A stretch of 64,000 nt of DNA from Paenibacillus sp. sptzw28 (lineage in GTDB: Bacteria > Bacillota > Bacilli > Paenibacillales > Paenibacillaceae). Each line of letters opens with the position of its first letter. Within the stretch, counting starts at the first letter, position 1. Below the pieces are notes generated by a model. The model was not told the origin of the DNA, searched no databases, and saw only the letters and a list, made by a program, of their open reading frames with translations. A program made the position numbers and the translations under genes. Positions 8,557 through 38,487 of this stretch are shown here, piece after piece. The DNA lies in NCBI RefSeq assembly GCF_019550795.1, contig NZ_CP080545.1, positions 5,561,501 to 5,625,500 of the forward strand, given 5' to 3'.

Positions 8557-8598
8557 CTTCATTGGTGGATGCCGAAACTGGCTAGTTGTTGCCAGTGT

Positions 8599-8633
8599 AA
8601 AGGGCAGCAGCCATAAAGTTGGCGCTGCCCTTT
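8599..8633. terminator. bidirectional terminator
   Basis: AAAGGGCAGC and GCTGCCCTTT form a ten-pair stem around a 15-base loop between two convergent genes. Confidence 0.75.
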
Positions 8634-8741
8634 CCTTGCGAGACTCATTAATGTTCGTAGCTTTGGACAGGTGTCAGCAATCACTCCTTAAGAAGCCGAT
8701 GTGCCTTCACTGAACATCTCCCCTTTGCTATGTACCAGAAC

Positions 8742-9593
8742 TTATACCACCTCCTGGGCGTTGCTCCGGAATTCATTGGGTGTAATCCCATATTCCTTCT
8801 TAAAGGCGCGATAAAACGAACGCAGACTGTTAAATCCTGAGTCGAACGCAATCTCTGTTACCGGGTTCGAGGTAGATAGCAGCAGCACCTGGGCAAGGGC
8901 TAGGCGCCGGCCGTTCACATAATCCCGAAATGATGTATGGAGCTGCTCAGAGAAGATTCGTGAGATAAGAAATTTGCTGACCCCCACTTCTCTTGCAAGC
9001 ATATCCAGGGTTACAGGCTCCAGGAAGTGAAGGTCCACATAGGCAAGGATCCTTTGAATACTGTCCAGATCCTGGGTGTATTCTATTTTCTTCAGAGATA
9101 ATAATGGAAGCACATGTCCTAATACCACAGAGGTGTACGCCCTCAGCAAACGGTTATCGCAATTTCCCTTATATTGTTCATGCAATGCTTTCAGCATGTT
9201 CGAGACGTTATCAATCAAGTGTTCCTTGGGAATCATCGGGTTGTTTGGAATATGCCTCGTTAAATCCCCTGTGAAATCCCCTGGGAATGCAGCATCGAAA
9301 AAAACGAGCTGGATCCGACTGCTCTCTGTTGTTTTGTAGCTGTGGGGTTGGTTGGGAAAAATAACTACCATGTCTCCTTCAGACAGAATATATTCCTGCT
9401 GATCGATGGTAATATGGATCTTGCCGGATAGGACTATTGTGATTTCAACGTGTTTATGCAGATGAAGGGGATAGGTATTATTGGTGGATATGAAAGTGTG
9501 AAACGATTGATGACGATGCTGATATTGGATTTTCACTTCTGAGCCCCCATAGAGGTAATCTGACTTCCCTACAAGCAGTGAAGTGCTTCTCAT
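8742..9593 (-). CDS. AraC family regulator with N-terminal cupin
   Basis: 283 residues. The N-terminal 100 residues form a cupin-type sensor (TYPLHLHKHVEITIVLSGK, SEGDMVVIFPNQPHSY). The C-terminal 100 residues form two helix-turn-helix units (LDMLAREVGVSKFLISRIFS, and NPVTEIAFDSGFNSLRSFYR followed by AFKKEYGITPNEFR). It is divergent from the pectate lyase gene, so an activator of pectin use that responds to a sugar is likely. The start codon lacks a good ribosome site, so its exact position is uncertain. Confidence 0.88.
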   Translation of the reverse strand: MRSTSLLVGKSDYLYGGSEVKIQYQHRHQSFHTFISTNNTYPLHLHKHVEITIVLSGKIHITIDQQEYILSEGDMVVIFPNQPHSYKTTESSRIQLVFFDAAFPGDFTGDLTRHIPNNPMIPKEHLIDNVSNMLKALHEQYKGNCDNRLLRAYTSVVLGHVLPLLSLKKIEYTQDLDSIQRILAYVDLHFLEPVTLDMLAREVGVSKFLISRIFSEQLHTSFRDYVNGRRLALAQVLLLSTSNPVTEIAFDSGFNSLRSFYRAFKKEYGITPNEFRSNAQEVV

Positions 9594-9632
9594 CTCTTCT
9601 AGAATAAAACCTTAATTCTATACTACAGTACA

Positions 9633-9680
9633 TTGGCACAAGTACAAGAATTGGCGCAAAAAAAATTTTTTTTGGCAGGT
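9633..9680 (+). promoter_or_regulatory. candidate AraC-type operator: three TTGGC direct repeats
   Basis: TTGGCAC (9633), TTGGCGC (9651) and TTGGCAG (9672) lie 18 and 21 bases apart, about two helical turns, in the shared region between the AraC and pectate lyase genes. Direct repeats at this spacing are typical AraC-family sites. Confidence 0.4.
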
Positions 9681-9799
9681 GCGAATTATCTGCAAGGTAT
9701 AAAATGATGGAAAGTAAGCAGCATGAGGCTTACTACATTTTTCAATAGGGAAGGGAGGATGTATAACAGGGCTGCAGATGAATCACGGAAGCCGCATCC

Positions 9800-21691: not shown

Positions 21692-23042
21692 GGGTCTGTC
21701 AAATCTTTTGTGTAAACTCTTTTCGTGCTTTCCCCCGAGGGGGAAAATCTATCGCAAGTGCTGTCCGATGCGATCCGGATAGAAAACGGAGAGCTGCAGC
21801 AGCATTTGACCCCAGTTTTGAACACGGCCTGTCCATTTACGCGTAACATCCATGGTGGCCAGATAAAGCATTTTCAACAAGGATTCATCCGTCGGAAAAA
21901 TGCTTTTTCCCTTCGTCACTTTGCATAGCTGGCGATGGTAACTCTCGATGATGTTGGTGGTATAAATGAGCTTGCGTATTTCGGGTGGGTACTTGAAGAA
22001 GGTAGCCCGCTCCTCCCAGTTATTGCGCCAAAAGCGAATGATGAGCGGGTACTTATTCCCCCAGGTTTCCTCGAAGAATCAAGTTCGACTATTGCCATTT
22101 CTTCCGTCGCTGCTTTGTAAATCGGCTTCAGGTCAGCTGTTACCTTCTTCAGATCCTTGTAAGAGACGTAACGGGTGGAGTTCCGGATCTGGTGGATGAT
22201 ACACTTTCTGAATATCCGTTTTCGCGTAACAAGCCTGAATGGCTTGGCTAAAACCGGTCAGATTGTCGACACAGATGATGAGGATATCCTGCACCCCCCG
22301 GTTCCTCAGGTCGTTTAGAACGCTGAGCCAGAACTTGGCGGATTCATTCTCACCAATCCACATGCCCAGTACATCCTTGTTGCCATCTAGGTCGATGCCG
22401 ATTACCATGTAGGCCGCTTTATTGACAATGGCACCATCTTGTTTCACCTTGAAGTGTATGGCATCCAGGAAGACAACCGCGTACACGCCTTGGAGCGGCC
22501 GGTTCTGCCATTCCTTAATCAAGGGGATGATCTTGTTGGTCACGTTAGAAATAAAGGTGGGAGAGACCTCAATCCCATACAGATTTTGCAGATGATCCTG
22601 AATCTCACGCGTGCTGACACCTTTGGCATAAAGGGCAATAATCTGATCTTCAATGCCGGTCACATTAGACTGGTGCTTCTTCACCACCAGGGGTTCAAAT
22701 TCCCCTTGCCGGTCACGGGGAACGGCGATCTCCTGATCACCGTACTCGCTTACGATGGTTTTCTTACTCTTGCCATTACGACTGTTGGTCGTCTGCTTGT
22801 TCTGCATGTCGTGCTTCTCATAGCCCAGATGTTCATCCATCTCGGCTTCCAGCATCTCCTGCAGCGTTTCGGCAAACAGCTCTTTCAACGCATTCTGTGC
22901 ATCCTGCGCCGAGACCAATTTATTCTCCTTAATGAACTGCCGGAGTTGCTGCTTTGTCCATAATCCCATGTGTTCTCCCCAACCTTTCTTCTACTTCCAT
23001 TGTAATAGGTTTAGGAGTTTACACAATCTATTTTACAGACTC
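21692..23042 (-). mobile_element. IS256-family element, complete ends, dead transposase
   Basis: 1351 bases, the same length as the intact copy at 39967. Ends are GGGTCTGTCAAAT and ATTTTACAGACTC (inverted repeat with mismatches). The flanks CAATGGAA and TGGCAAGG are not a duplication, so one flank has been rearranged or deleted after insertion. The right flank enters the middle of a recombinase gene. Confidence 0.9.
21749..22969 (-). pseudogene. IS256-family transposase, frameshifted
   Basis: The first 260 or so residues match the intact copy, including FLDAIHFKV and CVDNLTGF with the two catalytic Asp residues. An extra T after DIQK shifts the frame, giving an early stop at 22133. The remaining part is readable to 21749 with the shift corrected. 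The same shift occurs in the relic at 17357, so both descend from one dead copy or one duplication. Confidence 0.88.
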
Positions 23043-23369
23043 TGGCAAGGAGATGATAATCACTTTTTCGTATTTGCGAATCCAGACGGTAGACCCTTCC
23101 ATCAAGAGTCACCATACCAATGGTTCCGAAATTTCATATTCAAACATGAGCTTCCGTATATGCGGTTTCACGGCCTAAGGCACACATGCGCTACCTTGTT
23201 AATTAACCATGGAGTTCATGCGAAAGTAATCTCAAGCCGCTTAGGACATGGCAACATAGCGACGACCATGAATATATACGGCCACCGACTTCGTACAGCC
23301 GATCAGGAAGCTGCTCTTAAGTTTGAACATTTGTTTCAAAGCAAACCCAGTAACGACCAAAGACACTGA
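23043..23369 (+). pseudogene. tyrosine recombinase, C-terminal catalytic part
   Basis: 108 residues, with the N-terminal part removed by the IS256 end. It has the recombinase boxes HGLRHTCATLLINHG (HxxR), SRLGHGNIATTMNIYGH with the nucleophile Tyr, and upstream FFVFANPDGRP. Its end lies 200 bases from the right island repeat, as expected for an integrase next to its attachment site. Inactive as it stands. Confidence 0.85.
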
Positions 23370-24373: not shown

Positions 24374-25300
24374 ATGGGGAAAATCAGTTTGTTGGTTGGA
24401 AACGGCTTTACCTTAGATTTTATAAAGGATTCTGATCTCAATTCTTCAAGACCTTTACATTGCTTTCAAAACCCCAATCAAAGTAATGAAATTAATTATG
24501 ATAATTACCTTGATAAACTTCATTTCATTAAGAATGAACTTTTTCCTTTACGCAATCAATATTCTAATGATTTTGAAGCCATTAAGATATTTCTCGAAAG
24601 TATTAGCGGTGATACCAAAGAAATAGAAAAGGACTGTCAGCTAAGACGATTTTTAGCATTATCCTATTCCCTATTTCAACTTAAATCTGAAAAGTATGAT
24701 ATGTCTAGTTGGAAGTGGGCAAGGTGGATTCAAAATAATCGTCAAGACATAACATTTGCAGTGTCATTCAATTACGATTTAATTTTAGAAAATGCCTTTA
24801 AGAATGCAAATATTAAATATTATAGAACAGGTTCAAACGAACCTTTTTGCAGCGTCCCGATAATTAAACCGCATGGATCAATTGATTTCGACGTCCCAAA
24901 TTTCTTCCAAGGTAATGTTTGGGGAATTCATACAAGATTAAACGATACACAGTTTGTGAAAATTGTCCCTAAGTGGGAACGGTATTTACCACGATTAGAA
25001 GCTGATATGATTCCTCCATCACAAAAAAACTATCAACGTAAATTGAAATGGACAGAGACGGGGTTCAAACTTTTTAACAACTTAGCTAATTCTAATAATA
25101 TTAGTTATTTTATGATTGGTCATTCCTATTGTGTTGAAGACAGAGAGGAAGTTGACCACTTTATTGATCGACTCCAAAGTACAACTGTTGTCCATATAAT
25201 GCACCCCTACCCATCATCGGATTTATTAGATAAACTAGAATCGAAGAGATTAAAATATAAATACCCAATGGATTGGGATTCGTTGCCTAACTTAACATAA
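24374..25300 (+). CDS. SIR2/AbiH-like protein, possible abortive-infection gene
   Basis: 308 residues, with a GAAGGGAAAG site. The N-terminus LLVGNGF (6-12) matches the nucleotide-binding start of AbiH and SIR2-like proteins. SFNYDLILE (131-139), KPHGSIDF (165-172) and MIGHSYCVEDRE (247-258) fit the remaining SIR2-fold motifs; His167 would be the catalytic candidate. No other domain is present. Such stand-alone proteins are found in antiphage defence as NAD-degrading effectors; this role is inferred. It lies outside the right island repeat and between transposon scars. Confidence 0.6.
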   Translation: MGKISLLVGNGFTLDFIKDSDLNSSRPLHCFQNPNQSNEINYDNYLDKLHFIKNELFPLRNQYSNDFEAIKIFLESISGDTKEIEKDCQLRRFLALSYSLFQLKSEKYDMSSWKWARWIQNNRQDITFAVSFNYDLILENAFKNANIKYYRTGSNEPFCSVPIIKPHGSIDFDVPNFFQGNVWGIHTRLNDTQFVKIVPKWERYLPRLEADMIPPSQKNYQRKLKWTETGFKLFNNLANSNNISYFMIGHSYCVEDREEVDHFIDRLQSTTVVHIMHPYPSSDLLDKLESKRLKYKYPMDWDSLPNLT

Positions 25301-25874: not shown

Positions 25875-26288
25875 TCAACTTTGTTTTGTCGTATATTTAA
25901 TGAATTGCTCTACCTCAAAAACAAGCGAATACCCTTTATTTTTTTTCATGATAATAACTGGACGTTTATATAAATTAATTCTCCTTCCTATAACTTTCTG
26001 GAATGAGAGGCACCTTCTACCCCACTTTCGTTTTTTGATATTAAATAACCATTCTGGTCCATTATATAATATGACCCAATTTTGTGATAATTCAGGTACC
26101 AGTACTTCGATATCACTTGAAACGTTTGAGTTAATCAAGAGTATTGAATCAAAAGATACGTCTGGCAAAATACTATTAACTTTTTGAAATAGCTTATGTA
26201 ATTCAGAAGTTTTTTTGGATAAAAAATCAAAATGCTTCAACAAGCTTATTCCAAGAATCACAATTAACGCTAATAAAATATTAGTCAT
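25875..26288 (-). CDS. membrane-anchored protein of the Cys-rich peptide cluster
   Basis: 137 residues: one N-terminal membrane helix (about residues 2-18, NILLALIVILGISLL) and a soluble domain with WVILYNGPEWLFNIKKRKWG and several basic residues. It has no cysteine and no thioredoxin motif. Its start overlaps the end of the MauE-like gene by four bases, so it is the last gene of the operon. Immunity to, or handling of, the peptide is possible; I do not recognise the family. Confidence 0.65.
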   Translation of the reverse strand: MTNILLALIVILGISLLKHFDFLSKKTSELHKLFQKVNSILPDVSFDSILLINSNVSSDIEVLVPELSQNWVILYNGPEWLFNIKKRKWGRRCLSFQKVIGRRINLYKRPVIIMKKNKGYSLVFEVEQFIKYTTKQS

Positions 26289-26779
26289 GATTCCATTTCC
26301 TTTTCTAATTCATTCTTATATTTTATATTTTCTAAGATGAAAGTGATGCTCAGTACAATTAGCAAGGATAGCACAAACTCATGGCTAGAATATGACTCCT
26401 TAAGGAGAAAGTAATCAATAACCAACAATAACAAAATTACTACATTACGAAGTATTGGAAACCGACTTAGGGGATGATTTGTCCCAAAGCAACTACATTC
26501 TCTGTTCTTTAAACCATTCTTCACTATTGTAAGTATAGTTAGCGTAATAATAAAAATTGCTGCTAATAATTGCTTCCATTTATTCATGGTATCATTTAAT
26601 AAAAATACAATAAAAAGTCCCGCTTCAAAGATTAGAATAATCCGAGATAGAATTGGAACCCATTTGAAAGGTATCCCATATGAAGCCAGCTCCATATGAA
26701 AATTTTCCATGCTGACTATTTTTGAATAAGAAGAAGAAAAGAAAATAAATGAGATTATGGTCCCTAGCAAAAAAACCAT
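26285..26779 (-). CDS. MauE/DoxX-like redox membrane protein
   Basis: 164 residues with four or more membrane helices. The ECSCFG motif (Cys95, Cys97) follows the second or third helix, as in MauE (usually CGCFG). MauE works with the thioredoxin-like MauD in forming the many disulfides of the methylamine dehydrogenase small subunit. Here two thioredoxin-fold proteins and an eight-cysteine peptide are in the same operon, so a parallel role as quinone- or membrane-linked disulfide partner is the best reading. Confidence 0.75.
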   Translation of the reverse strand: MVFLLGTIISFIFFSSSYSKIVSMENFHMELASYGIPFKWVPILSRIILIFEAGLFIVFLLNDTMNKWKQLLAAIFIITLTILTIVKNGLKNRECSCFGTNHPLSRFPILRNVVILLLLVIDYFLLKESYSSHEFVLSLLIVLSITFILENIKYKNELEKEMES

Positions 26780-26794
26780 TCACAAGCACCTCAA

Positions 26795-27169
26795 TTAATA
26801 TAGACTAATATTTATTGGATACCAACTTCTCTTCACACCATCAATATAGCATTCAAAAAAAATATTTTCTTCACGCTCAACTAGCAGTTTGAAATCAAAA
26901 TTTTGATCCACACCAGGTACTTGGTTCAAACCTCTATAATTGCGATGTACAAAAGCACTTGGAGAGCTAAGTAGTTCTCCTTTGGCGTTTATTATTTTGA
27001 ATTCCGTTAGTACATCTCTTTTTAATGGAAGTTCTGTTATTTTTAATAGGAATGAAAATTTAATGATATACGGAAAAACAGGAACACTAACGGAATTTAT
27101 TACTTTCCCAAGTACATGACGATTGTCTTCTATCTTTATTTCATCGCACGCTATTAATTGAACCTGCAT
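26795..27169 (-). CDS. small soluble protein of the peptide cluster, unknown
   Basis: 124 residues from the ATG at 27169 (GGAGG seven bases upstream); the longer start at 27184 lies before that site. Predicted all-beta: IKFSFLLKITELPLKRDV, LTEFKIINAKGELLSSP, FDFKLLVEREENIFFECYID. The pattern is like small sandwich proteins of the DUF6941 kind, but I would not insist. It lies between the exporter and the MauE-like gene; peptide binding or immunity are possibilities. Confidence 0.6.
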   Translation of the reverse strand: MQVQLIACDEIKIEDNRHVLGKVINSVSVPVFPYIIKFSFLLKITELPLKRDVLTEFKIINAKGELLSSPSAFVHRNYRGLNQVPGVDQNFDFKLLVEREENIFFECYIDGVKRSWYPINISLY

Positions 27170-27198
27170 CGTTTTCCTCCACATTGTTTATTTCCCTT

Positions 27199-28995
27199 TT
27201 AAGGAGCGAGTACTTCAACTTTTGTATCGTTGTACCATTCTCTTTGTGACATCCACATATCATAATAAATATGTTTATTAAACATTAATTCATCATGCGT
27301 TCCGAATTCGACTATCTTTCCTTTTTGCATCACACATATTTTATCGGCCTTTCGTGCTATCCCAACACGATGCGATATCATTATCGTTGTGGTCGTTTTG
27401 CAATATTCTAAAACATCATTAAGTATCCGCATTTCAGCAAGGGGATCCATGGCAGAAGTCGGTTCATCAAATATAATAATCTCTGGATTATCTTTAACAA
27501 ATACTCTCGCCAACGCCAATCTCTGCCATTGACCTCCCGACAAATTAATCGATTCTTGATCGATGAATCCAAGTTTTGTATTCAAACCATGTGGCAAATC
27601 TTTATCGAATACTACTCTCTTTAAAATGGATTCAAGCTTTCCATCATCTTTAATTTGTGAAATATCACCGACGGCAACATTTTCTCGGACATTTGTTTGA
27701 TACTTAATGTAATCTTGAAAAATTGCGCTTGTTTTTTGATATAGGCTATTCACATCAAATTTATTTATTGGAACATTATCGTAAAAGATACAATTATCTT
27801 CAACCTTATACAATCCAAGTAATAATTTCACTAACGTTGTTTTACCTGATCCATTTTCTCCTAAAACAGCTATCGTCTCTCCCTTATTAATTGAAAGATT
27901 AATTTCTGATAGAGCAACATTCTGGCTATTGGGATACGTAAAGTTAAGATTCGATAAGTTAATACTATTTTGAAAACTAAAAGGCAGTTTATCATAAGTA
28001 GTTTTTACAACACTTTTTTCAGCTATTATTGCTCTCATATCGTTTGCCATTTCTGAATACTGTAAGTTTTCAAACCATTTAATGCAACCTTCAATAAGGC
28101 TGGAAATAACATTAATAATAATGGTAACGGCCATTGTAACTGCGATGTAGTCGCCGACAGATGCTTGTTGTTTTTTTATTAAATAGACTAGTAGTACAAC
28201 GACCACCGCTGAATTTACAATAGTCAATATTTCCTTACTTGCGTAGGTTATTTTTTCCATTTTTTCTAAGCATACTTTTTTGAAATCAATTTTATCCAGC
28301 TCTTCTTTCCATTTTTGTTTATAATAATTTGTAGTTGAGTATAGTGTTATCTCCTTTTGAGTATCAACACCGGTTAATAAATTATAATAATACATTGGTT
28401 TCATTAGGCTGGATTCAATCTCTGCATTAAGCTTAACCCTCTTTTTTACAGTTGTTAAGTTGATTATTCCTTTTAATACGCCTACTGCCATTGCTAAAAT
28501 ACTAAAAAGAATAAATGTTTCCGATAAGTATTTAATGAGTGACATCAAAACAATTAATTGCGTTATAAATTCAATTAGATTCAGATAGTTCTCATATATT
28601 TTATTATTCGCAAATTTTAAATACGCGAATTCGGATTGAAAAGAAGGAAACTCTTTAATTAGAAGTTCCATTTTTGCGTTCTGATCAATCATTTCCTCAT
28701 CACTTTTTTTTGAGAAGTTAATACTCATCTTGACAATTTGCAAAGAGGAAAAAAAATCAATTATAAGTTTTAATAATTGAAACCCAACAAACAAACATAG
28801 ACCCCATATAATCACACTCTCATTCATTTCCACTATAGAATCAAGTATGATTTTAGAGAAATAAATATTTACGTAAGAGTAAAACGCACCTACTATTGTA
28901 ACAGTCACCATTAGAATAACAGTCAGTGGACTTATCCTGTAGATTTTGATGAATGAATCGGCCATCATTCCGATCACTTTATTAATTCTATTCAT
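27199..28995 (-). CDS. ABC exporter, fused TMD-NBD, no peptidase domain
   Basis: 598 residues. The N-terminal 320 residues hold about six membrane helices. The ATPase has Walker A GENGSGKTT (about residue 380), Q-loop FQDYIKYQ, signature LSGGQWQR, Walker B IIIFDEPTSA and switch SHR. It lacks the C39 peptidase found in exporters of double-glycine leader peptides, which agrees with a peptide product that shows no leader. The start overlaps the preceding thioredoxin-like gene by four bases (ATGA). Likely exporter of the Cys-rich peptide. Confidence 0.9.
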   Translation of the reverse strand: MNRINKVIGMMADSFIKIYRISPLTVILMVTVTIVGAFYSYVNIYFSKIILDSIVEMNESVIIWGLCLFVGFQLLKLIIDFFSSLQIVKMSINFSKKSDEEMIDQNAKMELLIKEFPSFQSEFAYLKFANNKIYENYLNLIEFITQLIVLMSLIKYLSETFILFSILAMAVGVLKGIINLTTVKKRVKLNAEIESSLMKPMYYYNLLTGVDTQKEITLYSTTNYYKQKWKEELDKIDFKKVCLEKMEKITYASKEILTIVNSAVVVVLLVYLIKKQQASVGDYIAVTMAVTIIINVISSLIEGCIKWFENLQYSEMANDMRAIIAEKSVVKTTYDKLPFSFQNSINLSNLNFTYPNSQNVALSEINLSINKGETIAVLGENGSGKTTLVKLLLGLYKVEDNCIFYDNVPINKFDVNSLYQKTSAIFQDYIKYQTNVRENVAVGDISQIKDDGKLESILKRVVFDKDLPHGLNTKLGFIDQESINLSGGQWQRLALARVFVKDNPEIIIFDEPTSAMDPLAEMRILNDVLEYCKTTTTIMISHRVGIARKADKICVMQKGKIVEFGTHDELMFNKHIYYDMWMSQREWYNDTKVEVLAP

Positions 28996-29474
28996 TTATT
29001 GTTCTCCATAACTCTTAGTAAAGGCAGCATAAGATCTTCGATCATCGGGAGTGTGTTAATAATTCCGGCAGTAATAACTTGTCCAACTTTATTAAGAACT
29101 AATTGATAAGGTATTAGTTGAACTTTCAAACTATTTTCTATTTGATCAATGTGAAAAGAATATAATTTAACATTTCTCTCATCAAGGAGTTGCTTATAAT
29201 TCGAAACAGGGTTCACAGGGCCTTCAAAAAAGATAATATATGAAAATTCAGGGTATTTCTTAATCGCTTCTAATACAACTTCGGCGTCACATGCTTCACA
29301 ATAGTGACTAAGAAAAAACAATATACTTCCATTCATTGTGTCTTTAAGCCAGGATAAATCAGTTGGAGTACCCTCACGTAATAACAATACTTCGTTAGGT
29401 AGAAAAATACCCACCTCATACTCTACTTGTATAGATTTAAAGAACTTTCTATGTTCCATATCTCTTTCAAACAT
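28992..29474 (-). CDS. thioredoxin-fold protein with CEAC motif
   Basis: 160 residues, no signal peptide. A redox motif SHYCEACDAE has Cys59 and Cys62 after a beta strand ILFF, with a cis-Pro site in QLIPYQLVLN. The N-terminus (EYEVGIFLPNEVLLLREGT) is like the adaptor region of MauD. It lies directly after the peptide gene array, separated by a hairpin, and is translationally coupled to the exporter. Probable thiol oxidase, isomerase or adaptor for the eight-cysteine peptide, inferred from context. Confidence 0.75.
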   Translation of the reverse strand: MFERDMEHRKFFKSIQVEYEVGIFLPNEVLLLREGTPTDLSWLKDTMNGSILFFLSHYCEACDAEVVLEAIKKYPEFSYIIFFEGPVNPVSNYKQLLDERNVKLYSFHIDQIENSLKVQLIPYQLVLNKVGQVITAGIINTLPMIEDLMLPLLRVMENNK

Positions 29475-29579
29475 AACAACACCCCATTACTAACGTTTAA
29501 AAATCAATTTGGTACCATTTGAGCCGATTCTGCTTATTCTAAGTATAGTGCAAAATGTAGGGTATAATGGAAAATATAT

Positions 29580-29604
29580 GGAGAAGAGCGTTGCACTCTT
29601 CCCC
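29580..29604 (-). terminator. hairpin after the peptide array (attenuator-like)
   Basis: GGAGAAGAG and CTCTTCCCC flank a seven-base loop. On the minus strand it lies 24 bases after the last peptide stop and is followed by ATATATTTTCC rather than a clean T-run. It could let most transcripts end after the peptide genes. Confidence 0.5.
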
Positions 29605-29627
29605 ATATCTTGATTAATTAAAACAAA

Positions 29628-29822
29628 TTACGCGCAGCATCCAGCGTTAACTTCACATGCTGATGTAGTCGCGTGGCCATCTTTCGTGCAAGTCATCGTT
29701 TTGTATGCTTTGAGGATTTTTGTATACGTATTGCTTCCCGAAGTACATGCACCCCTAACACATGCTGTTCCTAGATCCGAAAGCGTCTTCGTATAGGTCG
29801 AGTCTGGGCAAGAACATGCCAT
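29628..29822 (-). CDS. eight-cysteine peptide, copy 4 (last in transcription)
   Basis: 64 residues, the same product as the three copies upstream; this copy ends in TAA, the others in TAG. Start: the ATG follows AAGGAGG by eight bases. A GTG nine bases earlier lies inside the ribosome site and is rejected. The peptide has Cys at 3, 5, 21, 26, 45, 56, 62 and 63, no signal peptide and no double-glycine leader. Two similar segments, STYTKTL (8-14) and NTYTKIL (31-37), show an internal repeat. It may be a leaderless, disulfide-rich bacteriocin or signal; a metal-binding peptide is the alternative. Confidence 0.85.
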   Translation of the reverse strand: MACSCPDSTYTKTLSDLGTACVRGACTSGSNTYTKILKAYKTMTCTKDGHATTSACEVNAGCCA

Positions 29823-29855
29823 TTCTTTCACCTCCTTATAGAGTTTAGGAGCAGA

Positions 29856-30050
29856 CTACGCGCAGCATCCAGCGTTAACTTCACATGCTGATGTAGTCGC
29901 GTGGCCATCTTTCGTGCAAGTCATCGTTTTGTATGCTTTGAGGATTTTTGTATACGTATTGCTTCCCGAAGTACATGCACCCCTAACACATGCTGTTCCT
30001 AGATCCGAAAGCGTCTTCGTATAGGTCGAGTCTGGGCAAGAACATGCCAT
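29856..30050 (-). CDS. eight-cysteine peptide, copy 3
   Basis: Same 64-residue product as the other copies, with its own AAGGAGG site; ends in TAG. The intergenic segment (33 bases) is also conserved, so the repeated unit is gene plus ribosome site. Confidence 0.85.
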   Translation of the reverse strand: MACSCPDSTYTKTLSDLGTACVRGACTSGSNTYTKILKAYKTMTCTKDGHATTSACEVNAGCCA

Positions 30051-30083
30051 TTCTTTCACCTCCTTATAGAGTTTAGGAGCAGA

Positions 30084-30278
30084 CTACGCGCAGCATCCAG
30101 CGTTAACTTCACATGCTGATGTAGTCGCGTGGCCATCTTTCGTGCAAGTCATCGTTTTGTATGCTTTAAGGATTTTTGTATACGTATTGCTTCCCGAAGT
30201 ACATGCACCCCTAACACATGCTGTTCCTAGATCCGAAAGCGTCTTCGTATAGGTCGAGTCTGGGCAAGAACATGCCAT
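30084..30278 (-). CDS. eight-cysteine peptide, copy 2
   Basis: Same product. One silent difference is visible (CTTAAA for CTCAAA in the LK codons near residue 37, the forward strand reading GCTTTAAGG). Stop TAG. Confidence 0.85.
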   Translation of the reverse strand: MACSCPDSTYTKTLSDLGTACVRGACTSGSNTYTKILKAYKTMTCTKDGHATTSACEVNAGCCA

Positions 30279-30311
30279 TTCTTTCACCTCCTTATAGAGT
30301 TTAGGAGCAGA

Positions 30312-30506
30312 CTACGCGCAGCATCCAGCGTTAACTTCACATGCTGATGTAGTCGCGTGGCCATCTTTCGTGCAAGTCATCGTTTTGTATGCTTTGAGGA
30401 TTTTTGTATACGTATTGCTTCCCGAAGTACATGCACCCCTAACACATGCTGTTCCTAGGTCCGAAAGCGTCTTCGTATAGGTCGAGTCTGGGCAAGAACA
30501 TGCCAT
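30312..30506 (-). CDS. eight-cysteine peptide, copy 1 (first in transcription)
   Basis: Same product. A silent change is visible (CCTAGGTCC for CCTAGATCC on the forward strand, in the Asp-Leu region), and one extra base lies before the ribosome site (TATAAAGGAGG). It is preceded by about 110 AT-rich bases that separate it from the thioredoxin-like gene and probably hold a promoter. Stop TAG. Confidence 0.85.
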   Translation of the reverse strand: MACSCPDSTYTKTLSDLGTACVRGACTSGSNTYTKILKAYKTMTCTKDGHATTSACEVNAGCCA

Positions 30507-30618
30507 TTCTTTCACCTCCTTTATAGAGTTAAAGAAATTATGAAAACATTATGCATTAAATTTTTCAACGCTTGTTTAATTATTGCATTCCAATAATATA
30601 TATACCTTCCTTTTTTAA

Positions 30619-31032
30619 CTACTCAACTATTCGACTAGCAAGCTTCATATAATCAGATTTGTTATAAGCAACACCTGAGACCCTAACAATGCTGTCTTTA
30701 ATAACAATCACGTATGGCAACATTGTTATATTAAAGAATCGTTCCATATCACTTTTATTTAGATGCACAATGGGGAATTTCCAATTAAAATATTCAGACA
30801 TCACTTGACTATCACTTTCATCACCAGTTGAAAATAAAATGAAGTTGAAATCAGGGAATTCCTGCTCTATCTCTGATAAACTTGGGGTGAAATCTATGCA
30901 ATGCAAGCAATGCAATGATATAAAAAATAAAACTTGCGTTCCTTTTTCAGGCAATTTTACTATTCTTTTATCCCAGCTTGAAAACGAACAAGGACTAATT
31001 TCACTATTCACTGTTTTTAATCCATCCACCAA
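30619..31032 (-). CDS. thioredoxin-fold protein with CLHC motif
   Basis: 137 residues; starts with TTG (31032) or more likely GTG (31029), eight bases after AGAAGG. The redox motif LHCLHCIDF has Cys42 and Cys45 after strand VLFFISL; the cis-Pro lies in TMLPYVIVI. It is TlpA/redoxin-like and has no signal peptide. It lies directly before the peptide array. Together with the CEAC protein and the MauE-like protein it makes three redox proteins in one operon, strongly suggesting disulfide handling of the peptide. Confidence 0.75.
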   Translation of the reverse strand: MVDGLKTVNSEISPCSFSSWDKRIVKLPEKGTQVLFFISLHCLHCIDFTPSLSEIEQEFPDFNFILFSTGDESDSQVMSEYFNWKFPIVHLNKSDMERFFNITMLPYVIVIKDSIVRVSGVAYNKSDYMKLASRIVE

Positions 31033-31066
31033 AACAACCTTCTTTCATTTGATAATTAATATCAGT

Positions 31067-32362
31067 TCACTGCTTAGAATCAATTAATTCATTTTGATAG
31101 ATTACTTTACTTTGCTCCACAATTTTATTTAAGCATTCTTTCGGAGACATATTTGTTTGAAGAGCTAATGTTATTACCGAGTCAAGCATCGAATCAAAAC
31201 TGTCAATAAAAGTAGTCGACAGCTTATCACTTAAATAAGGCCTTGTATCTAGTTCTTGTTGCCATAAGGTTGTCAAATCAACACCATTGTACTGATTCAT
31301 GTGTTGCTTTAATGTTGATACAGCGCCTGTATTACTATTTCTTTGCAGATAGGATACAGCATCTTCACTCATCACAGCTTTAATAATTTCCCATGCTACC
31401 TCTTTTTGAACTGCATCATTTGGGATACAAAAAATATCATTAAAAAATATTTCTGAATTAAGATTTCTTGCTTCTGCATCCACTGGGGTGGTAACTATTC
31501 CCCATGTAAAAGCTTGTTGTTGCTGAAGCTTTGGAACCATATCTAACATTCCAAAATACATTGCTGACTTTCCTTGGAGAAAGAGATCACTGTTATTTTG
31601 AACATTATTGTTTCGGGACGTATTCAATACCATTGTAATTGCTTCAGTCCATGCGGATTGATTAAAAAGTAGTTCATTACGCTGTTCATCAACAATCTTC
31701 CATCCCTTAGTTCTAGCTATGTGCCGTAACAAACTCGCAGGGCTAAGTCCCTCCATACCCAGCGTATCAGTTCCTGTAAATCTCATAGTTAGTTGAAGCA
31801 TCTCATCCCAGGTCATTCTATCGGTCGGATAAGCAACCTTATTAACGTCAAACAAATTTTTATTGTAATAAACTCCATAGGCATTAACCAATGGAGCTAA
31901 ACCGTTTAATTGACCAAAATCATTTTTAAGAGAAGCAATCATCTCAGTATAATAATTCTCAAGATTCATTTCATCCGAATTAATGAAGGTCGTTAAATCT
32001 GAAAGTGATCCCAAATCCTTTAGCTTCTGGAAATTCTTATTCCATGTAATAACTAGATCCGGTTTATACTTCTTAATTTCTTCCACTGCTATTTCAGAAC
32101 TACTACTTGTGGATTTAATAAGTCTAAATTTAATATTCGGGTATTTCTGTAAGATGTAATTGCCATAGAATGTGTAAAAATACTCATCATCGAATGTCGA
32201 ATAAACTGTGACTTCAGTATCTGGGATAGTAGATTTATCAACCTCCTCTGATGACGATTGTAGAAGATTACAACCTGATAGTATGAACACGAGGAATGGA
32301 ATTACAGAAATCAACACTATTAGTCTAACTTTATAATCATGGGTTATTGGCTTGAATGACAT
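31067..32362 (-). CDS. extracellular solute-binding lipoprotein 2
   Basis: 431 residues from the ATG at 32362 (GGAGG nine bases upstream); a longer frame to 32401 lies within the preceding gene. The signal ends in a lipobox LSGC, so the protein is anchored outside the membrane. The body is a family 1 solute-binding protein (YNKNLFDVN, TDRMTWDEMLQLTMRFTG, QGKSAMYFGMLDM, PNDAVQKEVAWEIIKAVMSE). It overlaps the upstream paralogue by 26 bases. No sugar permease is nearby, so a sensor, receptor or self-protection role is more likely than import. Confidence 0.8.
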   Translation of the reverse strand: MSFKPITHDYKVRLIVLISVIPFLVFILSGCNLLQSSSEEVDKSTIPDTEVTVYSTFDDEYFYTFYGNYILQKYPNIKFRLIKSTSSSSEIAVEEIKKYKPDLVITWNKNFQKLKDLGSLSDLTTFINSDEMNLENYYTEMIASLKNDFGQLNGLAPLVNAYGVYYNKNLFDVNKVAYPTDRMTWDEMLQLTMRFTGTDTLGMEGLSPASLLRHIARTKGWKIVDEQRNELLFNQSAWTEAITMVLNTSRNNNVQNNSDLFLQGKSAMYFGMLDMVPKLQQQQAFTWGIVTTPVDAEARNLNSEIFFNDIFCIPNDAVQKEVAWEIIKAVMSEDAVSYLQRNSNTGAVSTLKQHMNQYNGVDLTTLWQQELDTRPYLSDKLSTTFIDSFDSMLDSVITLALQTNMSPKECLNKIVEQSKVIYQNELIDSKQ

Positions 32363-33632
32363 TTTGAATATCCTCCTGTAGTTTTTGAACAACTTGATCA
32401 ATCGTTAACTCATTGTTTATAGCTGGTTGCAGGATGTTGTTAATCGCACCTAGCACAGCATTTTCAATAGATAGCGGTATTCTATTTAATTCATTCAATA
32501 CTTTAGGCTTTAGTTGATAAAAGGCTTTATAATTGCGATTGTCATCATCACTGATCAATGATTCACGAACCGGTTGGGTAAACAATGATGAAGCTAAGTT
32601 ATTTTTTAGTCTCGCAGCTTCCTCACTATTAATATAAGACCAAATTGCCTGACTATTTTCAGTATCGTCTGTTTCAACATAAATCCCATTTAAATATTGG
32701 AAATTTATCGTATGACTAACCCCAGGATTGTTAGGGTCTACTGGCTCACTCACAACTTGCCAATTTACTTTCTTAGTACTTCTTTCTAGCTCTTTGGTGA
32801 AATGGTAGGTATTAAGTGTCATGGCTATCTGACCATTCATGAACAATTCCGATAGCACATCATCTCCGGAATTTCCTGAACCATGTTTATAAAATGTAAT
32901 TGTTTTATCCAAAATAGTTCTCCAGGATGGATTATCAAACAAGACGGTTTTATTCAAAGAGTCATACCATTTCAAACCTTCTGCTTTTCCCATAACAAGT
33001 AATAAATCTGCTGCATCATAGAAAGGGAGATATAAACCCGTTATTTTTCCGTCTGAAGGAAATCGTTCTGCTAGTTCCAAAACACTTTCCCACGTCATCT
33101 GGTTAGTCGGTTCTGAAATCCCATATTTCTCAAAGACTTCTTTGTTATAGAATAAAGCTTGAGAGCTCGTTGTATCTGCTAACGCATATAAACTACCATT
33201 TCCCATCTCTTTAATAGCTTCTGTAATATTCGAATTTATTCCATTAAAGTTACCTTCATTTACGTATTGAGACACGTCAGTTAACATATTTTGATTTAGT
33301 AAAGATGAATATATTGAAGATGGAAAAAACAAAATATCAGGCTTTGTATCTCTGACAAGCTTCAAATATAATTCTGAATCCCAATCTTTATTTGAAGCAG
33401 GAACATATTTCATAGCTTTCCAGACGCCTTTTCCAAGTTGTGGCGTAAATTCAACCACCCTAAATTCGATATCCTTAAACTTATCGATAACAAAACCGTA
33501 ATCTTTATAAAAATCCGCTGTAGAACTATAAAGAATTGTGATCTCTTTCTTCTCTTCTACCAGATTTTCAGATTGACATCCTCCTAGCAAAACACATAGA
33601 CATAAGAAAATAGCAAAAATCCTAATATTCAT
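32337..33632 (-). CDS. extracellular solute-binding lipoprotein 1
   Basis: 431 residues; AAGGAG seven bases before the ATG. A signal peptide with lipobox LLGGC (Cys at about residue 19) is followed by a family 1 binding-protein body (FYNKEVFEKYGISEPTNQMT, FMNGQIAMTLNTYHFTKEL, EAARLKNNL). It is a distant paralogue of the next gene, with the same order of motifs (TNQMTWESVLELAERF against TDRMTWDEMLQLTMRF). It comes after the ECF sigma gene and may be under its control. Confidence 0.8.
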   Translation of the reverse strand: MNIRIFAIFLCLCVLLGGCQSENLVEEKKEITILYSSTADFYKDYGFVIDKFKDIEFRVVEFTPQLGKGVWKAMKYVPASNKDWDSELYLKLVRDTKPDILFFPSSIYSSLLNQNMLTDVSQYVNEGNFNGINSNITEAIKEMGNGSLYALADTTSSQALFYNKEVFEKYGISEPTNQMTWESVLELAERFPSDGKITGLYLPFYDAADLLLVMGKAEGLKWYDSLNKTVLFDNPSWRTILDKTITFYKHGSGNSGDDVLSELFMNGQIAMTLNTYHFTKELERSTKKVNWQVVSEPVDPNNPGVSHTINFQYLNGIYVETDDTENSQAIWSYINSEEAARLKNNLASSLFTQPVRESLISDDDNRNYKAFYQLKPKVLNELNRIPLSIENAVLGAINNILQPAINNELTIDQVVQKLQEDIQNVIQANNP

Positions 33633-33825
33633 CGCTTTACTCCTTAAGTTATTTATTAGATTATAAAATTTTTCTGATTTATATCACTATCCTCAAAATT
33701 AAAAATGATTCTTATCCTTCCGACTAAAAGAACAAAACCAAAATAATTCATATATTTTATGTAATACAGTCTATTATTTTTATTTTATAGGACTTTTTAA
33801 CAATAAAGGCAAAAAAAATATATGT

Positions 33826-34311
33826 TTAATTTGCATATTTTTTAATTCTTTTTATTGCTCTAAAGTAAGTTAATTTTACTGATCCTTCAGTTTTGTTTAA
33901 TATTGCTGCAGTATCGCGAATACTATATCCATAAATCAATCTATACGTAACTACTTTTTGTTCGTTAAATAGTAGACTAGACAAAATTCTATTTAACTCT
34001 AATTTGGCTAGGGATTTTTCTTCGATATTGCAATTATCGGTAACAAATGGATTTGATAGTAATTCTCTTTTCCGTTTTCTGCAATAGTCATAATAAACAT
34101 TTTTGGCAATCCTTTTAAATAATGGGATAATGGAGTCAGTTTTCAATTCCCCCTTATTGAGCTCTAAATATAAATATCCTTTCACAAAGGTATCCTGTAA
34201 TATATCCTCAGCGTCGATGTAGTTTTCGGTTATTCTAACGATATATCTGAAAAGCTCTTTTTTATGTGTATTCCAAATATTATGCCAATCCAACTTAGCT
34301 GTCTGTTCCAT
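33826..34311 (-). CDS. ECF-type sigma factor
   Basis: 161 residues with a GAGGGGAC site. Region 2 lies near residues 15-80 (NYIDAEDILQDTFVKGYLYL, RIAKNVYYDYCRKRKREL) and region 4 near 100-155 (YRLIYGYSIRDTAAILNKTE, GSVKLTYFRAIKRIKKY). No anti-sigma gene is adjacent, unless one of the two lipoproteins takes part. It is the first gene of the peptide cluster, and I infer that it switches the cluster on. Confidence 0.85.
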   Translation of the reverse strand: MEQTAKLDWHNIWNTHKKELFRYIVRITENYIDAEDILQDTFVKGYLYLELNKGELKTDSIIPLFKRIAKNVYYDYCRKRKRELLSNPFVTDNCNIEEKSLAKLELNRILSSLLFNEQKVVTYRLIYGYSIRDTAAILNKTEGSVKLTYFRAIKRIKKYAN

Positions 34312-34717: not shown

Positions 34718-35818
34718 TCACCGTTTTAAGAACTGAGTAATAAATTCTGTTTGTTTTTTATTACTTTTCACCCATATTAATCCTCCATGTTTCTCAACAA
34801 TACTTTTTGTTATTGCAAGACCAAGTCCGCTCCCCCCGGAGCTTTTTGTACGAGATTTATCGACACGGTAAAAACGATCAAAAATATATGGTAGATCTGA
34901 CTCTGGAATGGGGGGTCCATAATTTGTAAAGTTTACAACTACATAATCATCAACTGAAGTAATGCTGATATCTAATTGTTTTCCATCCTTCGCATAACGG
35001 ATAGCGTTGGTAAATAAATTTTCGTATACTCTAACAAGTTCATTAGGATCTGCTTGAATATATACGGTTTCAGAAGGTCCCTTGATGTGATACTTCATAT
35101 TCGCCTGTTCAAGCAATGGCACAAATTCTTCTATAAGTTGACGTAACAAACCAGATAGATCAAGTTTTTCAAATTCCAATTGAATTTCACCGCTTGTCAG
35201 TCTAGTATATTCAAATAAGTCATCAATAAGTTTCTTAAGATTAAGAGATTTTTCATAAACAATGTTTACATAATATCGAAGTTCAACTTCATTCATATAT
35301 TTATCATTCTCTATATACTCAAGAAAGCCGATTATAGATGTTAGTGGTGTTCTCAAATCATGTGATACCCCCGTGATTAGATCACTTTTCCCCTTAACGG
35401 CGCTTCTCTCTTCTTCTATTGATTGCTTTAAACGTTCCGCCATCTGATTTATACTTTTAGCTACGATGCCTAATTCATCTTCAGATTTCACTGGTATTCT
35501 ATGTGTTAATTTACCTCGAGCTATCTCTTCAACACCGAAAGTAATTTCTTCAATATACTTTAATATGTTTCGTGAGAAAAAGAAAAAGAAAACAAAAAAG
35601 AGAAGGACACCTACTATTGACATGATTGGTGTTGAGCCAATATTATTAATGATCCATCTCAACAATGAAGTAACGAATGCAGAAGAAGATGGATTAAACC
35701 ACAGAACCAGAGCAGTTACATAATAACCACACGATAGTACAAGAGCTAAAGAAACTAAACTTACTAAAATAGAAAATAGAACCTTCCATAGGAAGGTCGT
35801 GAACAATCTTTTTTCCAA
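34718..35818 (-). CDS. sensor histidine kinase (VanS-like layout)
   Basis: 366 residues: two membrane helices (about 12-38 and 58-80), a HAMP region (YIEEITFGVEEIARGKLTHR), the H-box GVSHDLRTPLTSI (near residue 155), an N-box NLFTNAIRYAKDG and the G-box SGGSGLGLAI. Membrane-bound; it would phosphorylate the regulator encoded just upstream (15 bases between). With the penicillin-binding protein in the same operon, sensing of cell-wall damage is likely. Confidence 0.92.
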   Translation of the reverse strand: MEKRLFTTFLWKVLFSILVSLVSLALVLSCGYYVTALVLWFNPSSSAFVTSLLRWIINNIGSTPIMSIVGVLLFFVFFFFFSRNILKYIEEITFGVEEIARGKLTHRIPVKSEDELGIVAKSINQMAERLKQSIEEERSAVKGKSDLITGVSHDLRTPLTSIIGFLEYIENDKYMNEVELRYYVNIVYEKSLNLKKLIDDLFEYTRLTSGEIQLEFEKLDLSGLLRQLIEEFVPLLEQANMKYHIKGPSETVYIQADPNELVRVYENLFTNAIRYAKDGKQLDISITSVDDYVVVNFTNYGPPIPESDLPYIFDRFYRVDKSRTKSSGGSGLGLAITKSIVEKHGGLIWVKSNKKQTEFITQFLKR

Positions 35819-35832
35819 TTATACCCCTCACT

Positions 35833-36537
35833 TTAATTCTTCTGTTTCTCAATCTTATAACCAATGCCCCAGACTGTTTTTATATATTTGGGTTTCCGAG
35901 GAATGACTTCTATTTTTTCTCGAATTTTTCGAATATGTACCATCACTGTATTATTCGATTCTAAATAGGCCTCCTTCCACACTTTTTCGTATATTTGTTC
36001 AATGCTAAAAACAATACCTTGATTACGAGCTAAAAGCTCCAATATAGAAAATTCCCTGGGAGTAAGCTGGATAACCTCATTTTCACGCATTATTTCATGG
36101 GTAGCAATATTAATTTTCAAATCGTCAATAACAATTTCGTCAAAATTTGTTTGCTGAGATGATGTATATCGGCTATAACTTCTTAAATGGGATTTAATGC
36201 GTGCCACTAGCTCTAACGGACTGAATGGTTTTGTTACATAATCGTCGGCACCAATGCTTAATCCATTTATTTTATCTACTTCTTGACCTTTAGCAGAAAG
36301 GAATATTATCGGCATGTTATGCTTCTCCCGCATCTTCATGCATGCTTCAATTCCGTCCATTATTGGCATCATAACGTCCATTACAATCAAATCAATTGTA
36401 TGCTTTTTTAATATTTCTAGAGCCTCACTACCGTTTTGAGCAGTGAATAGAAGAAAGTTTTCGTTCTGCAGATAAATTTTCATTAAATGAACGATTTCAG
36501 CTTCATCATCAACTAGAAGAATAGACTGACTACTCAT
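35833..36537 (-). CDS. OmpR-type response regulator
   Basis: 234 residues. The receiver domain has the acidic pair near residues 10-11, phosphoacceptor Asp54 (DLIVMDVMMP) and Lys near 105 (YVTKPFSP). The C-terminal winged helix ends VWGIGYKIEKQ. It is the partner of the kinase that follows, and could control the penicillin-binding protein operon and perhaps the peptide cluster. Confidence 0.93.
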   Translation of the reverse strand: MSSQSILLVDDEAEIVHLMKIYLQNENFLLFTAQNGSEALEILKKHTIDLIVMDVMMPIMDGIEACMKMREKHNMPIIFLSAKGQEVDKINGLSIGADDYVTKPFSPLELVARIKSHLRSYSRYTSSQQTNFDEIVIDDLKINIATHEIMRENEVIQLTPREFSILELLARNQGIVFSIEQIYEKVWKEAYLESNNTVMVHIRKIREKIEVIPRKPKYIKTVWGIGYKIEKQKN

Positions 36538-36606
36538 GAACCCTGTTCCTCTCTTGATTATTTATAGGTATCATAATATTACATTTTTAGGCTATAGACT
36601 TCAACA

Positions 36607-38487
36607 TTACTCACATTGATTTAAAATTAACGAGAACATATGAGCAGCTACACCACTATTTTCTGTCATATAATTATCTTTGTTACTCTTATCGAAACCC
36701 ATCCAAACAGCTGCTGATAATTTTTCAGTGTATCCTACAAACCATAAATCACGATTAGCCTTTTTAGGTACACCACTAATGTCCAGCTGAGTGGTTCCCG
36801 TTTTACCCGCAACCCAATGATTAGTTCTAGCCTTTTTGCCTGTACCATTGTTAACTGCATTAATGAGCATCTTAGTCATATCGTCTGCTGTCTGTCTAGA
36901 AATGACTTGTTTATTTTTCAGGTGATAAGAATAAATGATTCTTCCTGTCTTATCTTTTATGAGTTTAACTGCATGCGCATCATTAAAAACTCCCTTGTTT
37001 GCGAAAACACTATAAGCTTGTGCCATCAAAAGTGGCGATATCCCTTCTCTTGTACCGCCTAGAGCCAGCGCTAAATTACTATCCTGTTCACTCAGTTTTA
37101 TCCCTAACGTTTCTGCAAACTGTATTGCAGAATCCAATCCAATCTCATTAAGTAGCCAGACTGCCGGAGAATTTATGGAGTCTTGTATTGCCCGAGACAC
37201 CGTTATGGAACCTAGATATTTTCCATCTGTATTTGAAGGCTGATAATCACCATAACTAGTCTTTTTATCTTGAAGGATAGACAGAGGAGTATATTTACCA
37301 GATTGTAAAGCAGGACCATAAACAATAATTGGCTTGAAAGCCGACCCCGGTTGACGTGAATTTTGTATTGCTCGATTCCAACCACCCTCTACATACTCCC
37401 TTCCACCAACAATTGCTCTTATCTCACCTGTATTGTTTTCTAATATTACAGTGGCGCCTTGAATTTTTTGATCTTTTCCATCCTTAGGAAAATTAGCAGG
37501 ATTATTAAAAGCCTTCTCTGCTGCCTGTTGATAGTTTTTATCCAAACCAGTAACAATAGTATAGCCACTTTGCATAAGTTCTTTTTTTGTTAATCCAGTT
37601 ATTTTTTCTGCTTCCTGAAAAACATAATCTGTATAGGCCGCATATTTACTAATACTTTTTTTGGGATTTGGTGGTGGTGGTAAAAAGTCAACGCTTTTCG
37701 CTTTTATCATCTGATCTTTACTTATGTAGCCCTGCTCATACATCAACTTAAGTACAACGCTTCTTCTTTCTTTATTTTTCTTATAATTATCTACTGGGTT
37801 ATAGATGGATGGCCCTTTGGGAATGGCGGCTAATGAAGCGATCTGCCAAAGTTTTAATTGGTTCAAGTCATTAATTCCAAAATACCTTTTGGCCGCGGCC
37901 TTAACTCCATATTGTTGTCTTCCAAAATAAATATGATTTAAATATAATTCGAGAATATCATTTTTTGTATAGCGTCTCTCCAAAGCTTTAGCAATGAAAA
38001 CTTCGATTATTTTGCGATTAAAACTTTGTTCATTTGAAAGAAATAACGTTCTAGCAAGCTGTTGAGTAATACTACTACCGCCTTCGACAATTTCTAGATT
38101 AGCTAGATTATTCCCAAATGCTCTCGTTATTCCAATCCAATCAATTCCTTCATGTTTATAGAATCTACGGTCTTCTGTCGCAATAAATGCATATAAAAGT
38201 AGTTTGGGCATTTGTTTAAGTGATGCCTTGTCTTGGTTGCCATTTTCTGTTGAAGATTCTATGACTTCTCCATTTCGATCGGTTGTAATGATTGGTGACG
38301 TTATATCCATTTCTTTTAGGTGACTTTGAAAAATATATTTTCCTGTGGCATCAAAAAAGAGATATCCACTTACAAATATAAATACTGCAACTACAGAAAT
38401 ATCAAAAACTAAATAGACTTTTTTTCTTCTAATAATAAGCCGACTAATTTTTTCTTTATTCTTAAACAATAAAGTATTCATTCTCAA
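36607..38487 (-). CDS. class A penicillin-binding protein
   Basis: 626 residues. One N-terminal membrane helix (about 30-50). The glycosyltransferase domain has EDRRFYKHEGIDW, GGSSITQQLARTLF and RKIIEVFIAKALERR. The transpeptidase domain has the serine motif SRQPGSAFKP (SAFK), SIN (in QDSINSPAVW) and KTGT (AGKTGTTQL). It builds and cross-links peptidoglycan outside the membrane. Its start overlaps the preceding sensor-like gene by 26 bases, and the two-component genes follow. In this context it may be an inducible, stress-tolerant enzyme. Confidence 0.93.
   Translation of the reverse strand: MRMNTLLFKNKEKISRLIIRRKKVYLVFDISVVAVFIFVSGYLFFDATGKYIFQSHLKEMDITSPIITTDRNGEVIESSTENGNQDKASLKQMPKLLLYAFIATEDRRFYKHEGIDWIGITRAFGNNLANLEIVEGGSSITQQLARTLFLSNEQSFNRKIIEVFIAKALERRYTKNDILELYLNHIYFGRQQYGVKAAAKRYFGINDLNQLKLWQIASLAAIPKGPSIYNPVDNYKKNKERRSVVLKLMYEQGYISKDQMIKAKSVDFLPPPPNPKKSISKYAAYTDYVFQEAEKITGLTKKELMQSGYTIVTGLDKNYQQAAEKAFNNPANFPKDGKDQKIQGATVILENNTGEIRAIVGGREYVEGGWNRAIQNSRQPGSAFKPIIVYGPALQSGKYTPLSILQDKKTSYGDYQPSNTDGKYLGSITVSRAIQDSINSPAVWLLNEIGLDSAIQFAETLGIKLSEQDSNLALALGGTREGISPLLMAQAYSVFANKGVFNDAHAVKLIKDKTGRIIYSYHLKNKQVISRQTADDMTKMLINAVNNGTGKKARTNHWVAGKTGTTQLDISGVPKKANRDLWFVGYTEKLSAAVWMGFDKSNKDNYMTENSGVAAHMFSLILNQCE

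Follow-up and report, generated by a model that had tools for sequence, protein, structure and literature searches.

The window, a 64,000-nucleotide stretch of the genome of Paenibacillus sp. sptzw28, contains a gene cluster at 25875-34311 in which four tandem genes for a small cysteine-rich peptide stand among genes for two thioredoxin-fold proteins, a MauE membrane protein and an ATP-binding cassette (ABC) exporter. All genes of the cluster are on the - strand, inside one 6.1-Mb contig. Very probably they make, fold and export the peptide, which is predicted to be antibacterial. From upstream to downstream, the features are as follows.

33826..34311, - strand: extracytoplasmic function (ECF)-type sigma factor, possible regulator by position only (Pfam Sigma70_r2, r4_2 and r4 over cut-off)
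32337..33632, - strand: SBP1, solute-binding lipoprotein (PF13416, E 8.8e-15; lipobox LLGGC by eye)
31067..32362, - strand: SBP2, solute-binding lipoprotein (PF01547, E 3.9e-10; lipobox ILSGC by eye)
30619..31032, - strand: TRXA, soluble thioredoxin-fold protein with CLHC (PF13905, E 1.8e-7)
30312..30506, - strand: peptide gene copy 1, 64 aa, 8 Cys, no recognisable leader
30084..30278, - strand: peptide gene copy 2
29856..30050, - strand: peptide gene copy 3
29628..29822, - strand: peptide gene copy 4
29576..29608, - strand: 15-bp hairpin and short T-run, probable partial terminator (RNA fold -21.5 kcal/mol, z -5.4)
28992..29474, - strand: TRXB, soluble MauD-like thioredoxin-fold protein with CEAC (family profile against Paracoccus MauD, hhalign 96.4%, E 1.1e-9)
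27199..28995, - strand: ABC exporter, membrane domain and ATPase (PF00005, E 3.3e-27)
26795..27184, - strand: SMALL, DUF6941-like beta-sandwich protein without signal peptide (AF2 pLDDT 95.7)
26285..26779, - strand: MauE, membrane protein with CxC (PF07291, E 1.9e-16; 60.9 bits, passing the cut-off of 27)
25875..26288, - strand: ANCH, one N-terminal membrane helix and a soluble domain of unknown fold, without CxxC

Every gene listed in an earlier reading made from the DNA letters (the sequence-only reading) was recovered on one strand by open reading frame (ORF) and Pfam analysis. Its description of overlapping or close starts agreed with the coordinates: adjoining genes share 4 or 26 nt or are separated by 14-34 nt, the exceptions being wider gaps past the ECF gene (193 nt), ahead of the first peptide (112 nt) and past the last peptide (153 nt). 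The ATG of SBP2, at 32362, is preceded by AGGAGG and its start overlaps the end of SBP1; the operon holds both lipoproteins without a permease gene. Among the window proteins, the sigma factor, both solute-binding proteins (SBPs), TRXA (Thioredoxin_8), the ABC ATPase and MauE matched Pfam families over cut-off, and TRXB, the peptide and ANCH matched none. No peptidase family was among the Pfam matches of the exporter at E≤1, and no C39-type N-terminal peptidase was found in it. The protein formerly described as small and soluble is present and now appears to be a remote DUF6941 member, scoring below the PF22091 cut-off of 27 bits in the window (13.3) and above it in the two relatives tested, from loci L096 (38.9) and L016 (35.9). 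The ECF sigma gene, which had been counted as part of the operon, is also present, and its membership is by position; a model of this single gene matched the window and none of the 48 others among 49 loci, with weak echoes in locus L019 about 5 kb outside the cluster.

The peptide genes form a tandem array with a 228-bp period. As previously claimed, the four encoded peptides are identical, and the claimed 64 residues with eight Cys hold given the ATG start, the ORF listing having a 67-aa form that begins at a GTG in the same frame, overlapping the Shine-Dalgarno (SD) sequence. The three 33-nt spacers are identical and carry that sequence, AAGGAGGTGA. The coding DNA varies solely at synonymous positions 48, 111 and 195, and because of these three differences the array is unlikely to be an assembly duplicate of one gene. 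At E≤1 the window peptide matched no Pfam or NCBIfam family, whether PF17861, the laterosporulin family, or a known non-secreted family, the kind of match that the sequence-only reading had named as counting against itself. This result argues against a cytoplasmic metal-binding (metallothionein-like) or structural peptide, an explanation that would suit the Cys richness and the missing signal peptide; as an exporter-type ABC gene is present in 47 of 51 loci described below and laterosporulin is extracellular, we consider it very improbable. A search of 5.8 billion proteins gave a single match to the peptide, at 83%, and its relatives in the genome collection came from one species, Cohnella faecalis, in which the order from TRXA to ANCH is that of the window. 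In Cohnella faecalis loci L012, L013 and L050, transposase-like ORFs adjoin the cluster and the ABC frame is broken, as is that of TRXA in L013 and L050. A PDB search with a profile of 16 relatives' peptides returned one row, the 'Bacteriocin' 6lwz, which was weak at E 0.47. The start of the window peptide, ACxCPD, resembles that of laterosporulin, which prompted the comparison reported below.

Spread of the machinery and its peptides

The TRXB query had matches in 7 of 98 related genomes; this and the following genome counts take in the window's own genome. The SMALL profile matched 39 of 394 genomes in the same family, distributed over 9 of 19 genera, 10 of 398 in the same class (three weakly) and 2 of 299 in the same phylum, namely the window genome and one weak match. 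Fifty-two places were retrieved: six from the TRXB search, 40 of the 47 family-level SMALL rows and six class-level SMALL rows. The family-level rows left out were the own genome, two already included, three on a single Cohnella contig, which is probably the L012 contig, and a weak match (G253). Three of the 52 places (L106-L108) had no further cluster gene, leaving 49 cluster loci found without use of the peptide. In 48 of these 49 loci, the operon strand has at least one small ORF that is rich in Cys, preceded by a ribosome-binding site and free of a recognisable leader. The single exception, L077, has TRXA and SMALL, and TRXB, this type of exporter and MauE were not found in it. One of the loci, L050, is the Cohnella locus to which the peptide search had also led.

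Gene presence was tallied over 51 loci, comprising the window, one Cohnella contig, 46 machinery-found loci and three laterosporulin loci. TRXA was present in 51, SMALL in 50, TRXB in 49, ABC in 47, MAUE in 44 and ANCH in 34 of them, and the peptide in 50, demonstrating the wide co-occurrence whose absence would have spoken against the earlier reading. When Cys-rich ORFs were defined as encoding 35-80 aa with at least six Cys and an SD value of at least 5, 59 were counted on the operon strand within 393 kb of cluster sequence (51 in the 46 loci located independently of the peptide), as against four in the control, which comprised both strands of 556 kb outside and the cluster antisense. The operon is real and conserved. 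In L019, two leaderless 6-Cys peptides accompany MauE, TRXA-like and ABC genes (8136-11717), and TRXB and SMALL were not found; this cluster is a more distant relative, perhaps a sister cluster type. The MauE frames of L064, L069 and L070 span about 257-298 aa, and fusion to an additional domain is possible.

The 62 distinct peptides, three of which are laterosporulins, have 41-72 aa with six (12 peptides), eight (44) or ten (6) Cys. Forty-two end in CC or CCx and 32 begin with MAC, and in 57 the residue that follows Met1 is a small one (A, S, G, C, T, P or V), which is compatible with removal of Met, since removal requires such a residue. Many of the peptide genes match the ribosome-binding consensus over 8 nt. 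Identical tandem copies occur in the window (four), L014 (three) and L016 (two), and diverged sets of three in L082, L103 and L104. A profile built from 31 other cluster peptides placed the three laterosporulins (E 2.8e-4, 3.9e-4 and 0.096) over all of 20,000 shuffles, the best of which had an E of 0.13.

Laterosporulin loci

In the class genomes, laterosporulin matched 4 of 398, three of them strongly and all in one genus, which is presumably Brevibacillus. The query was the sequence in Table 5 of PMC6510442. The fourth match (E 0.0087) has an internal stop, and cluster genes are absent from its 9 kb. All three strong loci (L094-L096) have the order laterosporulin - TRXB - ABC - TRXA - MAUE - (ANCH) - SMALL, and the gene ahead of laterosporulin in L096 encodes a LuxR-type regulator. 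Hidden Markov models of the machinery that had been built without these loci recognised TRXB (E 1e-31 to 2e-32), ABC (1e-178 to 4e-178), TRXA (4e-15 to 6e-16), MAUE (2e-30 to 2e-31) and SMALL (9e-26 to 2e-26) in them; the ANCH model gave E 2e-4 in two and missed L094. TRXA, first called at 62 aa, is a 153-codon open frame with CSYC in all three. L096, the one of the three that was scanned, has a peptide matching PF17861 (E 1.8e-41) and MauE and SMALL over their Pfam cut-offs. The L096 peptide includes the N-terminal sequence favoured in PMC3293901. According to that report, laterosporulin was purified from supernatant, is antibacterial, begins with Ala after Met and keeps its activity unaltered in dithiothreitol, and its ABC protein is without a significant protease domain.

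Since the same machinery surrounds the three laterosporulins and is repeatedly paired with a variable Cys-rich peptide, we assign the cluster to a laterosporulin type, defined by a leaderless Cys-rich peptide with TRXB, ABC, TRXA, MauE and SMALL on one strand, all of which the window has. Judged by sequence, the window carries a new, very divergent, quadruplicated peptide in an operon of laterosporulin type, and the locus is not an orphan. For family and role together, we think it likely that the locus is such an operon with four copies of a leaderless, disulfide-stabilised putative bacteriocin. A little-studied bacteriocin that had stood alone thereby becomes one of a family of predicted peptides found in the Paenibacillaceae, in relatives of that family within its order and in what is presumably the Brevibacillaceae.

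Solute-binding lipoproteins occur near or inside clusters in 15 of 54 loci, for example L018, L062 and L070. These, together with the two permease-less lipoproteins of the window, could be receptors if the peptide were a secreted signal. We regard a signal as improbable: 39 of the 54 loci have no nearby SBP, and laterosporulin, whose three loci have none either, was purified as an antibacterial. To our knowledge, laterosporulin is the one member of the cluster type that has been tested. If the peptide is a bacteriocin, as we favour, the lipoproteins and ANCH may serve in self-protection or assembly.

In 2012 a 4-kb piece of the laterosporulin locus was described, with a regulator, the peptide, a hypothetical protein, an ABC transporter and a 'dehydrogenase' (PMC3293901). 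Since the stretch from the regulator through the end of TRXA measures 3.94 kb in L095, the published cluster probably ends short of MauE, ANCH and SMALL. According to PMC6510442, attempts to express the 4-kb piece were unsuccessful, as were those with that paper's own EcoRI pieces of about 6.7 kb; the latter result speaks against missing genes as the whole cause. The probable full gene set gives a testable reason for including MauE, ANCH and SMALL in heterologous expression of laterosporulin-type clusters.

Predicted route of the thiols

The profile match of TRXB is to the thioredoxin domain of the bona fide MauD from Paracoccus, and TRXB fails the MauD equivalog TIGR02661 (20.3 bits; cut-off 188.6). 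MauE matched genuine Paracoccus MauE at E 1.3e-8, and the two have F, K, F, E, CxC and R in common. Among those counted, CxxC was present in 45/45 TRXA and 44/44 TRXB and CxC in 42/42 MauE, and both Cys of TRXB were invariant across a 40-row alignment. A hydrophobic N-terminus was seen in none of 44 TRXB and in 7 of 45 TRXA. By crude hydropathy and the positive-inside rule, the CxC of MauE faces inward in 38 of 40, and the soluble part of ANCH lies inward in 28 of 29, having more K/R after the helix than before it. Because the same rule also puts the CxC of genuine Paracoccus MauE inward, this orientation is a feature common to both MauE and does not indicate an inversion. The predicted topology points to thiol chemistry in the cytoplasm ahead of export, whether oxidising or reducing.

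That disulfide oxidation takes place in the cytoplasm, before export, is the version that we favour, with a likelihood that we put slightly short of even. Methionine aminopeptidase would remove Met1 to give a peptide of 63 residues that starts ACSCPD, TRXA and TRXB would form or sort its four disulfides and be re-oxidised via the CxC of MauE, and the peptidase-less ABC exporter would release the peptide, perhaps escorted there by the DUF6941-like protein. Once exported, the peptide may kill or inhibit competing bacteria. The hairpin past the last peptide gene may keep the peptide mRNA more abundant than that of the downstream genes; each of the three laterosporulin loci has a strong hairpin in the corresponding position (z -4.6 to -6.6), and not every locus showed one. 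The opposite chemistry could lead to the same product if the thioredoxin-fold proteins held the peptide reduced and unfolded, MauE donated electrons and the disulfides formed outside after ABC export. The N-termini of TRXB and TRXA, which suggest that both act inside, suit this as well, and the computed results are compatible with either direction of electron flow. MauE, however, has been speculated to aid disulfide formation in methylamine dehydrogenase (PMC7794033), and we consider the reductive version rather unlikely. The earlier proposal that the operon produces, oxidises and exports the peptide gains support from the same gene set around the secreted laterosporulin, and oxidation by these proteins stays a prediction.

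More tentatively, oxidation ahead of export might represent a widespread, cytoplasm-facing folding machine in which two soluble CxxC proteins take electrons from Cys-rich peptides without leaders and hand them to an inward-facing MauE, with ANCH as tether, DUF6941 as escort and the peptidase-less ABC protein as exporter of the folded peptide. Conserved machinery would then serve near-limitless peptide variation (6, 8 or 10 Cys; 41-72 residues), and laterosporulin would be the earliest known representative of a large class. The clusters raise the question of whether bacteria can form disulfides in the cytoplasm ahead of export.

Known systems and the surroundings of the cluster

The window shares with laterosporulin (class IId, PF17861, Brevibacillus) a leaderless Cys-rich peptide starting ACxCPD, the hairpin after the peptide and the same machinery genes. 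In contrast to the single laterosporulin gene for 50-52 aa with six Cys, it has four genes for 64 aa with eight Cys; PF17861 matches the L096 peptide and not that of the window, an ECF sigma gene stands in place of the LuxR-type regulator (L096), and the lipoproteins have no matches in the laterosporulin loci. The maturation system of Paracoccus denitrificans methylamine dehydrogenase resembles the cluster in the conserved MauE residues and in the likeness of TRXB to the MauD thioredoxin domain. Its client is an enzyme subunit, whereas that of the window would be a small peptide, the window TRXB is without a membrane anchor, and the cluster has a pair of CxxC proteins together with an ABC exporter.

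Using decRiPPter, three Streptomyces candidate families were described in which mauE adjoins a predicted precursor with at least eight Cys, and MauE was proposed to act in modifying this ribosomally synthesized and post-translationally modified peptide (PMC7794033). They are candidate families of another phylum, and the likeness to our cluster is one of description. Actifensins are defensin-like and likewise encoded in multi-copy operons, as bacteriocins, but they have a 32-residue leader, and the word 'thioredoxin' is absent from the main text of the paper (PMC6989792). In the open-access literature, which leaves most subscription journals outside, no account of the full laterosporulin gene set or of its spread was found. 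The cluster had been called apparently undescribed, which applies in part, given the published 4-kb laterosporulin piece (PMC3293901) and the flagged combination of MauE with precursors of at least eight Cys (PMC7794033). Its peptides add new members to the laterosporulin kind and clearly extend it, without forming a wholly new kind.

The cluster is contained in a low-GC island at 18000-40000, where 2-kb bins have 32-37% GC (one 46%) against mostly 39-54% outside, and beside it lie a transposase of the Mutator family (22133-22969) and a short fragment of an integrase (22932-23369). Low GC and neighbouring mobile genes suggest that the cluster was acquired. A SIR2-like protein encoded at 24374-25300 on the + strand is a possible anti-phage defence protein (PADLOC SIR2, E 1.5e-6). 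Immediately upstream of the cluster and likewise on the - strand, genes for a sensor kinase, a response regulator and a penicillin-binding protein (34718-38487) have a possible role in self-protection or regulation.

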